DNA of 64,000 bases from Haliclystus octoradiatus (lineage: Eukaryota > Cnidaria > Staurozoa > Stauromedusae > Haliclystidae). Location: NCBI GenBank assembly GCA_916610825.1, contig OU744449.1, forward strand, positions 27,440,728 through 27,504,727, written 5' to 3'. Shown piece after piece: positions 3,801 through 9,000 of the stretch. Position 1 is the first letter of the stretch; the number at the start of each line of letters is the position of its first letter. Below the pieces are notes generated by a model. It searched no databases, was not told the DNA's origin, and saw only the letters and a program-made list of their open reading frames with translations. Made by a program: the position numbers and the translations under genes.

Positions 3801-6800
3801 AATTTATAAAGATTATCCTCTGTTGTGATCAATTTGTTTTTTTTTACTACTATTCAAAGCTATAAGAAAATGGTGGTTATTATTGCCTTGATTGATTTGT
3901 ATTATGGTCCAACAATTATCTCATCTTTGTATATACAGACCTGTGTTTTGGACATGTAAGGAACCGTACTAATAATGGATAACATAAACGCAAGATTTGA
4001 TAGAAACATGTAGGAGGCCTACAGTGTCTGACTAAAGGTTTAGCTTCCCAGAATCCATTTTCAACGTTTTCTTCTGGATTATTTGTTGAGGTTTGACCTA
4101 TAAATCAGATAATTTTCAGTTTTCTTCTGAATTTGCTCTAGCCTTCCGCGATCTAGGATCCCAGGATCTTAACTTCTATCAATTGTAGGCTAGTAATCTA
4201 TTTATTAGACTATATTTATCAGTTGGTTTCTCACCTGTTCGTCTTCATTGCTCTAAGTAGTTGTCTTTGTTGTTATTTGTGAATAACGTAATTTATAAAA
4301 CAGTAAATAATGTTGTTCTCTTCAATATTGTCAGTGTAATTTAACCTGTTGAATTATGAATTATGATATTTTCAAGGTGATGAGATACTGCTGAGTAAAT
4401 AAACCAAATTTTGTCTTTGAATAAATAAGTTTCACACATTTTGTAATGCTTGTTCAACTGTTTTGATATGTTTTTCATTTCATATTACTGCATAATAAAA
4501 ACTCGATCATTTTTATTATACCATTTTATAAATTTGGAAACAAGTAATTTTTGCATCAAGTCTGTTATTCAGTAATTCATTTCTAATTGAAATTCTTGAG
4601 TTAGCTATACCGTTTCTATGGATACAATTGAACAATAGTCTATTGTTTATTGAAGAAATTAATCTATTGTGTGTTTCTGACACAACAAAACTTGATCTTT
4701 TGGTTCTCTTGTAATGGTTTATTTGATTTTTATGAACTCCTTTGCTGGAGATGATTAACAGTTGTCCTCAGAAATTATTGTCTATATTTAAATGCAATAT
4801 GTCATTGAATAAGAAAACTAAACAGATAGATAATCAAACATATTTTTGGCTTGGTCATTCAGATGATATATCGGAAACAGGAGATACTTCGATGTCTTTT
4901 AGTTCATTTGAAGTGAAACGACGGAATCTCGCTATTTATACAATACAAGAAAATGGTATTTCTTTCCTTTGTTCTATTTATTTTATTGTTACAATGTTTA
5001 ATTACTTATGTATATCTATCTATATATTACAAAGCAATGTTGTTTAACTAAACAGTTTGTACGTTCCTCTTAAATTCAATTACATTTACACATATAGCTT
5101 CAAAAATGCTTGCAGTTATGAACACCACTATTAAAATCATAATTAACAAAATTGTCTTGTAAGACATCAAATAGAGTTCTTGCTGATGTTACAATTGTTG
5201 AAATTATTTGAATAATAAAAGTTGGTTTGATGATAATCAAATGCAAATATTCAAGGATCAAAAGCAACATGAATACTTAATCTATTTTCTTTCTTCAATG
5301 CTTTGATAGTTAGGATGTATATCGACATCTATTAGTATTGTATTGATTAGTTACAATACAATGTCTAATAATGGAGTCTCACCAGAAACGTATTGCTGAT
5401 TTTTTATCCTAAATCGGCTCAAGTACCCTTCAAAGTAATGCATCCAAGATATTTTTTAAATATATCAAGTTTTGAGTACGTAATTAATGATTGAAAATCA
5501 TCAAAAAATTACGCTGGAAAAATTGACTTATTTTCCTGACACCACTGTAACGTCAATATTCAGGCGAACTGTTTGGTCTGAACAGGCTGGCCGTCAGTCA
5601 ATCTCAGTCTCCATATATATGGTACACGAAAAAATTGTATTTACTTCCACGTGTTAAGACAGACCACAGAAAGATCTTTATCTTTTCGAGGTGTGTGTCT
5701 TATAAATAAATATATCAATATACATAGCTATAACAAAGTAAAATACAAACAAGAAATATTATCAAAATTATTAGATAAAGCAAATACCAAATAAACGTTT
5801 TTAGCATCTCCAGGCTTCAAGAAACAACCGCAAAGTCGTCTTGATCTGAATTGTATAAATGTATATGTGAAATATGTTGAACTAGCTATTTATGTGTTAT
5901 ATTGTTTATGGACCTTGAAATATACTATGTACTACTATGACTAACAATTCTTACCGTATTTTGTTGATGATTTTTGTGTGGGATTATTAATATGATAACA
6001 TTCATTTCTACGACCAGAACTGTTAAAATGGATAATCTACGAGGCTTCCGAGGTATATTTTGATAATATTTTCCAATTTTATTGTTGAACAATTGTACCT
6101 TTGTGCTTCTGTTGGTTTATTAAAAGGGTTTGACAAAAGTAGCATCTTAGATTGCAGAAAGAAGATAATGTTTTAAGATTCCAGAAGGTGTATGGTTTTG
6201 TCAAACACTAACATTTCTAAGAACACTGTAATGTTGTAAAAGTATGACTCTACTTTCAGGCACCTCCATCAATATGGATCAATGAACAAAATCATTGGGC
6301 ACCATTTGAATATACACATATATAGTAATAATAATGAAAAGGTCAAGAAAGATACATTCTTTGGTTGACAACCAAATAATGTGTCTTTCTTGACCTTCTC
6401 ATTATTATTACTATTTACGCTCTGCTATTCACTAGCATTGAGCACTATCCAATTGCCAATATTAAGTTTTAATATTTCTAATATTATTCCTATATATATT
6501 TATATACATATAATAATAATAATTAATTAAAAAAATTAATTGTATTGAGTGTGAACTCTGAAGATCTGAAGATCGCAAAATCACCGTCTGAAGATCGCAA
6601 TAAAAGCGTGAAACTCCGAGTTACGGAAAAGGCTTTGCCTCGTCTCTGTTTTATACTCTATATATTTATATACATATATATATATATATATATATAATAA
6701 TAATAATAATTATTATTATTATTATTATAATTAATAATAATATATTATTATATTTAGCTCTATCAAATGATATTGAGCACTATATTTTGCTATTAGATAA

Positions 6801-9000
6801 TATCTAATATATATATATATATATATATATATATATAAATAGTAGATCAAAGATCACGAGTTTATTCCGTTACTCTGAGTTTCGCGTAAAGACGCTCTTC
6901 AGACGGTTTTATTTAATAAAACCGTCTGAAGAGCGTCTTTACGCGAAACTCAGAGTAACGGAATAAACTCGTGATCTTTGATCTACTATTTATATTGCTC
7001 TGCTTTTAGCATTGAGCACTCAAATTGATGTTTTGCCCACACAATTACTTTATTATATATATATATATATATATTCGGGACCATGGCTTAGATACTGAGT
7101 ACGCCTTCGAATACTTTTCTGTTCGAAAACAATTCTGATCACAATTATGAAATGTTTGTGATCAAATGTCTTCCTAGCAATATTTTCTTCCAGAATGTTC
7201 ATGGGTTGTTTGTTGTTTATAATGCGGGTCTCTTTTTCTGTACATACCTTACAAAACCAAGCATAAGCATACCGTACCTTAAAGCGTATTAATTATCATC
7301 ATTTATTCAGCAGATATTATTTTCACATTGTTGAAATAATGATCAATACCGTAAGTATCATTTTCTGTTCTTCATTGTAGCACCATCCCTTGCAGATGAT
7401 TCTGATGACAGTGATACCGGGGGTATGGGTATGGAATGGGACCACTCGGCACTCGGTGTTGTTGTTGGTAGTGAGACTGGTCTTGGTACTCCATTGTCAA
7501 CGTCATACATGCCAGCTGCAGGAGGACCATTCTCTGCTTTGATACACTCCATGTGGCCGCAAGATATCCTTGGACAGATACAACAGGTATGTATTCATTC
7601 ATACTATGATAGGTATCAAAAGAAGATATCGGAGCACTGTGTTTATTTCATTCTTTCAGATCTTTTTATGATCCCGTGTCTTTTACTTTTAATTAGATTT
7701 TGGTAAATTTATTTTTAAATGCTTTATTTTAAGGCATTTGCAACACTCTTTGCTTAGTTGAAATTGTTATATATTAACGGTTGATATATATTAATACTTT
7801 AATTAGTTGACCAACAAAAATTGAGTATTTTTAATATGTACAGTGAAACCTGTATACAACAGCGAGCTATGAGAGGTTGATTAAGTTGGCCACTGTATGC
7901 AGGTGACATTTATATATCGGGTTGATTCAATAGAAAGTACTATTTTAGACATTACAATAGTGACCACTATAGATAGGTGGCCGCCTGGATTTGATTGTTC
8001 AAAGTTTTATAATGATCCCAATTTGCTGGACTGTTCTGAGGCAGATATCTAGTATGCGCATCGTATGCTTAATTGCATATAGCTTGCACCATTATGTGCC
8101 CTCTCTCAGTAAGAACAATTACAATGCAAATCAGAATAAATATTCAAATAATATGATATGGCTAATTTAGCTTGTATCAAAGATACAATTAAAAAGTTGT
8201 TTTGTCTTAGCATTACTTGTATTGCATAGTTTTTTTTAAAGAAATAGATGTTCAGTCTTCTCTAATTGTAAGCTATCTTATCAAATATAAAGAAATAACT
8301 TCAAAGACTCTACCCTCTATTCACAAACTACTATTGTTTCTTACCTAATATTTCCTTTAATTTCAGACAGAAGATTCTGGAAATCATCCTGAGTGTGAAT
8401 ACGATGAGTTTGGATTTCGAATTGATCATAGTATGTCATAATTATTTAATCTTCTAGGCCCACTATAGCATCCAGAGTATGAGGGAATTAATTTAAATTT
8501 CCAATATCCATTTTTCAGATTATTTGCTCTGTCCCACAAGACAACAATTAATACCTTGCTTAAACGTTTCAAATTTCCTTTTGTATATATAAAATATTAT
8601 AGTTTCTGAACGTTTTAAATTATACAATTAAGACAAACTTGAATTCTACCTTCCTACTAATGTCCCACTTACCAACTGCACCAGAGGGGAGATATAAACC
8701 AAGTTTGAATGTATTGTAATTGAGACGGTATTGCCCTACCGAGGACGCTTGTACCACTCTTACTACAATCATTGCTCTTTAATGATCTCAGCCGCAGCCG
8801 AGATGTATGTTATTTTAATTTCTGCCGTTTGGATATTTTATTTTGTCTTGTGTTTTCTATTTTTAGATGAAGGAAAAGACACGGAAGATCCTGATCCAGA
8901 ATCGTTTGCAACGGCAGAAGATCCTTCGTTACGATTACGATGGACTGCACATATGGAATTCACTCAGAGTCACACTGCTGGAAATTTAACATGGGATAAG
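839..9000 (+). CDS. SGSM3: SGSM3 exons 1-4: N-terminal region
   Basis: Exons 839-902, 7381-7586, 8367-8430 and 8867-9000 encode residues 1-156. Exon 2 holds an acidic, Gly-rich insert (ADDSDDSD, then GGMGMEWD) that vertebrate SGSM3 lacks, followed by the conserved [16 protein letters not shown] block where vertebrate SGSM3 nearly begins. Exon 3 carries the conserved YDEFGFRI segment, and exon 4 the [11 protein letters not shown] and GNLTWDK blocks preceding the TBC domain. Intron 1 is about 6.5 kb and holds the ribozyme repeats; intron 4 holds the Penelope-like inverted repeat. Confidence 0.88.

Follow-up and report, generated by a model that had tools for sequence, protein, structure and literature searches.

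The locus considered here, in a 64,000-nt stretch of contig OU744449.1 of the staurozoan Haliclystus octoradiatus (positions 27,440,728 to 27,504,727, forward strand; in the following, the window), raises the question of why two hammerhead ribozymes (HHRs) should lie in the same orientation, with predicted cleavage sites 335 nt apart, inside a gene that resembles SGSM3. An earlier note on this DNA had read them as tandem copies of one unit, namely a retrozyme that would release a 335-nt RNA, with Penelope terminal repeats as the alternative. In our reading, to which we assign a probability of about 0.78, the locus is a nest of 5'-truncated Penelope-like terminal repeats, many of them standing head-to-head in ATT/TA microsatellites, which arose by two-strand priming with joining of the resulting complementary DNAs (cDNAs). 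The observations that carry it are the HHRs with their covarying stems, the geometry of the pairs, the tail on one arm, the microsatellite flanks, upstream reading frames for reverse transcriptase (RT) and GIY-YIG endonuclease (EN) in four families and, in short palindromes, an over-representation of arm ends at the ribozyme cut.

Two probable insertions in the window

The repeat unit consists, in this order, of a short type I HHR, a region T1 of 30-50 nt and a tail hairpin GCTCT..GAGCACT. From 6319 to 7075, a family-E pair is followed by the B2 arm that carries HHR 1, then by a tail of family D and finally by the family-C pair that contains HHR 2. Copies within the window are:

6319-6367, minus strand: family-E arm without tail; the match starts one base 3' of the HHR cut position
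6368-6460, plus strand: family-E arm with tail hairpin GCTCTG..GAGCACT (6419-6446); starts exactly at the HHR cut position
6509-6558, minus strand: B2-type tail end, inverted partner of the HHR 1 arm (by-eye match to locus L035)
6584-6626, plus strand: HHR 1, family B2, predicted cut after 6622 (scan, family match)
6623-6660, plus strand: T1 region of the HHR 1 arm, with (TA)n at its end
6659-6745, no strand: (TA)n / (TTA)n microsatellite
6753-6810, plus strand: family-D-type tail hairpin (GCTCT..GAGCACT..CTATTAGATAATATC) without its HHR (by eye against L001)
6833-6913, minus strand: family-C arm without tail, bearing an HHR in inverted orientation (6906-6867, minus-strand cut after 6871)
6915-6995, plus strand: family-C arm, perfect mirror of 6833-6913, with HHR 2 at 6922-6961 (predicted cut after 6957)
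6996-7075, plus strand: tail hairpin of this family-C arm, with (TA)n at its end
45810-45920, minus strand: third HHR (perfect, 45920-45878, cut after 45883) with T1 and tail hairpin, family-A copy
56470-56552, plus strand: 5'-truncated family-B arm with tail-like hairpin; the match starts within the HHR, at -14 from the cut

HHR 1 and HHR 2 contain all invariant bases and three helices each, and both the sequence and a scan bear out the two plus-strand hammerheads and the 335-nt spacing of their predicted cuts that the earlier note had described. The invariant core (CUGANGA, GAA, UH) together with three helices places them in type I. In HHR 1, stem I is CCGU/ACGG, stem II has three pairs and one mismatch and stem III is ACU/AGU; the stems of HHR 2 comprise four, four and three pairs. 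A scanner tolerating one stem II mismatch found four HHRs in the 64-kb window, whereas 100 simulated windows gave 0 to 0.01 per 64 kb; the three stem III pairs (ACU/AGU) were preset by the search pattern. It is because of the core, the genomic copies and the covariation described below that we regard the motifs as hammerheads.

The retrozyme explanation, in which a 335-nt unit between the two HHRs is excised and circularised, is very improbable at this locus. The type I HHRs do share their orientation, the size falls within the 170-400 nt given in a study on animal retrozymes (PMC7229834), and a retrozyme-like 352-bp array of five minus-strand and seven plus-strand copies exists on contig C2. 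However, the best family matches of the two plus-strand HHRs differ, being B2 for HHR 1 and C for HHR 2, and no direct repeat of at least 16 nt joining them was listed except the microsatellite. The window locus therefore does not offer the tandem direct copies of a single 150-450 bp HHR-bearing unit by which a retrozyme would be recognized. Furthermore, a palindrome and a foreign tail hairpin sit between the two HHRs. Since their families differ, two insertions have to be assumed and the 335-nt spacing looks accidental: the pair at 6833-6995 probably represents one insertion and the HHR at 6584 part of another. The window motifs are thus remnants of two Penelope-type insertions and not one small circular-RNA element. 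As a separate observation, the array just mentioned (C2:13912540-13916583) has its five minus units followed by the seven plus units head to head, an arrangement that, judged from positions, would be expected if copying of a multimer or circle had proceeded from each side.

The family-C pair is a perfect palindrome of 163 nt (81+1+81), absent from the earlier note, in which HHR 2 is paired with its own inverted copy. For the RNA 6550-7025, folding predicts a hairpin of about 80 bp over this pair, with a minimum free energy of -216.5 kcal/mol against a mean of -85.4 kcal/mol for shuffled sequences. HHR 2 should therefore be buried, which speaks further against excision of a retrozyme, and cleavage of the host transcript at 6957, as envisaged in the earlier note, becomes unlikely, since the palindrome is expected to fold back onto itself. 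The family-E pair likewise forms a palindrome (6319-6417), centred on the HHR cut.

Genomic copies and their link to Penelope-like elements

Copies with stem variation elsewhere in the genome, which the earlier note had named as a check, were found in thousands. In 261,861,806 bases on 33 contigs the pattern CTGANGAN{8,25}GAAACTNNNAGTHA gave 1853 + 1921 = 3774 matches as opposed to a single one for the reversed control. Among the 100 matches listed there were 25 neighbour pairs less than 600 bp apart, 16 of which ran minus-then-plus, where about one such pair in all is expected by chance among these matches. We read 60 of 69 merged regions around the matches listed and, in addition, 20 of 72 small family-C-tail regions; a fuzzy motif scan proved too permissive and was excluded from all counts.

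The 60 regions and the window yielded 93 HHRs, 66 of them distinct. In the latter, 83.2% of 858 cells were paired (77.5% after shuffling), and the covariation score of 0.296 was not reached by any of 500 shuffles (shuffled 0.174), slid alignments giving at most 0.170. Double-sided pair changes (7 versus 7.0 in shuffles) and further pair types (18 versus 19.8) were not in excess among these 66 HHRs. A fourth stem III pair, which closes a 1-nt loop, is paired in 59 of 66 and occurs as four pair types. Such a pair is impossible within one molecule, and stem III is therefore probably shared by two RNAs; the covariation of this pair would mean that the short HHRs act as dimers.

In four families, the GIY-YIG end of an RT/EN-type open reading frame (ORF) precedes the HHR by about 125-185 nt, namely in family A (L068), C (L034), D (L001) and F (L070). 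RT and GIY-YIG parts were recognized at these four loci on a basis that includes fold comparison and are not present at the window copies. Pfam searches returned nothing in four ORF pieces scanned from the loci and no GIY-YIG in six homologues, Foldseek, taken by itself, yielded no match with E <= 0.001, and sequence searches of PDB brought up nothing relevant. At L034, family-C HHRs of the same direction (1501-1533 and 2936-2968) flank RT and GIY-YIG ORF pieces, the ORF being broken and short. From the position of HHRs behind RT and GIY-YIG ORFs elsewhere it follows that the window HHRs are Penelope-like terminal repeats, the alternative offered in the earlier note. Within the window itself, an ORF piece at 9963-10214 (plus strand) resembles by eye the C terminus of a further GIY-YIG protein of Penelope type (compare the L004 piece).

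Inverted pairs with a single tail

Our sample comprises 168 arms that form 89 adjacent pairs less than 1500 nt apart, 52 of them head-to-head. The tail hairpin is present on one arm in 42 of these 52, on both arms in one and on neither in nine, several of which carry a damaged tail when inspected by eye. None of 20000 permutations reached this distribution, to which the repeated nest L053 contributes seven of the 52 pairs. Inverted terminal repeats with an optional tail on one arm, as they mark Penelope-like elements, are thus a property of the sample. L053 (C1:3017419-3022567) itself shows alternating family-D and family-C pairs, partly repeated about 525 bp apart, as would result from nested insertions that were later duplicated.

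The main rival explanation is self-priming, in which a single cDNA (or antisense RNA) serves, after folding back, as its own template. It has been proposed for the rotifer Penelope, for which the paper prefers self-priming on an antisense template (PMC3846280). We consider it unlikely here, albeit worth serious attention. Fold-back would readily yield palindromic centres and arms of the same family, and indeed both arms belong to one family in 51 of 52 head-to-head pairs, compared to 15 of 37 other neighbours; moreover, the loops in most of the 52 pairs are long enough for a hairpin turn. On the other hand, fold-back should copy the tail, which in 42 of 52 pairs is found on one arm, and loops of 0-1 nt, seen in five of 52 pairs (L035, L070, L086, L092 and the window C pair; the value of 0 at L082 is an overlap), are too short for a turn unless trimmed. 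Arm identity does not speak for self-priming either: it averages 0.938 within 31 complete pairs versus 0.919 between pairs, and only in 11 of 24 cases is the similarity to the partner equal to or above that of the average best match from other pairs, although the two means do not show either a one-molecule or a two-molecule origin of the arms.

An origin at the DNA level, by which inverted-repeat elements similar to miniature inverted-repeat transposable elements (MITEs) or DNA breaks would make the pairs and the HHR would be a passenger, agrees with the mirror symmetry and with the AT-rich targets. It is nevertheless hardly credible in view of the asymmetric ends, with a tail on one arm, and of the variable 5' truncation, which at L068 leaves an arm reaching more than 1 kb into the RT/EN ORF. 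Both features are typical of reverse transcription.

In the 90-120 nt on their outer side, 61 of 95 tail-less arms and 50 of 70 tailed arms have ATT/TAA/TA microsatellites, as opposed to 45 of 1000 control segments of 100 nt. Were each strand primed through pairing with a TAA target, one would expect ATT at the ends of tail-less arms and TAA at those of tailed arms. The ends of tail-less arms favour ATT over TAA by 26 to 7, just as strand-specific pairing predicts.

Arm ends at the hammerhead cut

A whole-genome search for short palindromes covered three families and allowed at most 30 bases between the arms; ends beyond +1 are invisible to it. Among the matches listed, 14, 2 and 6 palindromes were found per family, the last figure including one tandem duplicate, while controls gave none. 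Taking the first base after the HHR cut as position 0, the 42 arm ends of the 21 distinct palindromes fall at 0 (18), -1 (4), +1 (8) and elsewhere (12); an end at +1 signifies that nothing beyond the pattern matched, and some of these cases may be chance palindromes. Arms starting at the first post-cut base include the window pair at 6368, which contributes one of the 18 ends at 0, and L070 at 285/286. Copies broken exactly at the predicted cut suggest, as far as genomic sequence can tell, that the ribozyme works in living cells, and we infer that, at times, both strands of a break prime the copying of RNA cut by the HHR. In the literature open to text search, part of it in excerpt, no report of arm junctions at the HHR cut or of a tail count over pairs was found. 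A hand reading of arm ends, which looked stronger yet was not blind, was set aside.

Arm ends at the cut might also stem from stalling of RT at the folded HHR rather than from cleavage of the RNA, since structured RNA such as the HHR can halt RT. We consider this improbable: a stop at stem I approached from the 3' side is expected at about +4, and 18 of 42 ends lie at 0, with the reservation that ends beyond +1 escape the search.

Proposed two-strand priming and points against it

Two-strand priming would proceed as follows. A protein of the element would open both strands of a microsatellite, of which one would prime on the RNA end that follows the tail and the other on the tract that precedes it. 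Each cDNA would be extended to the 5' end of its RNA, which sometimes would be the HHR cut, and the two cDNA ends would be joined to give a palindrome. One start site per strand entails one tail per pair, and two cDNAs that reach the 5' end of cut RNA before joining entail palindromes with 0-1 nt loops at the cut. The one-tail pattern is genomic evidence in favour of priming on two strands from a pair of start sites.

More tentatively, and with considerable doubt, the HHR may pair two element RNAs through an intermolecular stem III, such that the dimer feeds both ends of one break, the strands start behind and before the tail, respectively, and the cDNAs run off at cut 5' ends and are joined into a cut-centred palindrome. 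A family-specific fourth stem III pair would then explain why 51 of 52 pairs are of one family. The small Penelope-linked hammerheads of Luense et al. 2017 reportedly cleave as dimers and share the very short stem III with a near-palindromic 9-mer, whereas here it is covariation alone that points to dimer action. Should the RNA-dimer reading be true, the Penelope hammerhead would gain a role in integration. According to a 2020 review, the role of HHRs in Penelope elements is unknown (PMC7761336); junctions at the cut together with thousands of genomic copies make an in vivo role directly testable.

A number of results weigh against this overall reading. The covariance-model check suggested in the earlier note turned out negative: cmscan with all Rfam families found no hammerhead at gathering score in the window and none at E <= 10 in 6200-7100, a search that included no known type I positive control; an Rfam match is an aid and stands outside our definition of an HHR. 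Matches to microRNA families in 6200-7100 were below gathering score, produced by the palindromes and accordingly dismissed, and a genome search with RF00008, a type III model without bearing on type I, was set aside. Energy folds of the isolated HHRs are not notably better than shuffles, and for isolated HHR 2 the full hammerhead fold is not predicted by energy alone. Tailed arms, with 16 ATT and 12 TAA ends, do not show the expected TAA bias. Family-C genome counts reaching 0, -2 and -4 (397, 371 and 356) drop only mildly at the cut. In a rule-based scan of 158 arms, which contains several family misassignments, 13 of 50 breaks fell at -2 to +1 versus 8.3 expected (p = 0.06), and the 3' half of the HHR was kept in 103 of 158 arms, so that 5' ends made by the cut cannot be the rule. 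Finally, a biochemical study of 2024 reports that none of the RNA reads had its end at the HHR cut and that HHR mutants inserted normally in vitro, cleavage not being needed (PMC11167929).

Comparison with known systems

That Penelope repeats can stand head-to-head, with one of them bearing a tail, is already published. The endonuclease-containing Penelope of Adineta vaga shares with our elements inverted pseudo-long terminal repeats that are mostly head-to-head, palindromes at junctions and an optional tail on one repeat (PMC3846280). Different from it are the very many short solo pairs in ATT/TA microsatellites, some with junctions at the HHR cut, and the counting of the one-arm tail over 52 pairs.

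Poseidon of Anolis carolinensis (PAc) has an HHR upstream of two adjacent RT start sites with the tail between them, and both strands are cut and extended with a preference for ATT, as proposed here (PMC11167929). Its RNA possesses two internal start sites, the interval between which equals the tail, and no difference in start site was seen there between the strands. While the PAc ORF begins inside the HHR and none of its RNA reads stop at the cut, in our elements HHR, T1 and tail follow the end of the ORF, and some genomic arms end at the cut. Animal non-LTR (long terminal repeat) retrozymes have in common with our elements the type I HHR, the AT-richness and a similar unit size, the 352-bp array included; they differ from the window locus, where no single unit is repeated in tandem (PMC7229834).

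Other features of the window

Downstream of the nest, an exon was located by eye at about 7382-7586, and pieces encoding TBC and SH3 domains follow on the plus strand. This is consistent with SGSM3, in whose putative intron 1 the earlier note had placed the hammerheads.

At 46160-46450 an inverted repeat of about 30 nt (AGAGCCATCTATTTACAAGAGTTGGGACAC), with arms a few hundred nt apart, appears MITE-like by eye. The segment 51031-56288 comprises about 5 kb between A-rich and T-rich tracts and opposed matching repeats of 64 bp and is perhaps a large inverted-repeat element. Two very similar ORFs of coiled-coil-like character run in the same direction at 40739-41518 and 43884-44729, and a perfect array of 231 TAGA units occupies 25965-26888.
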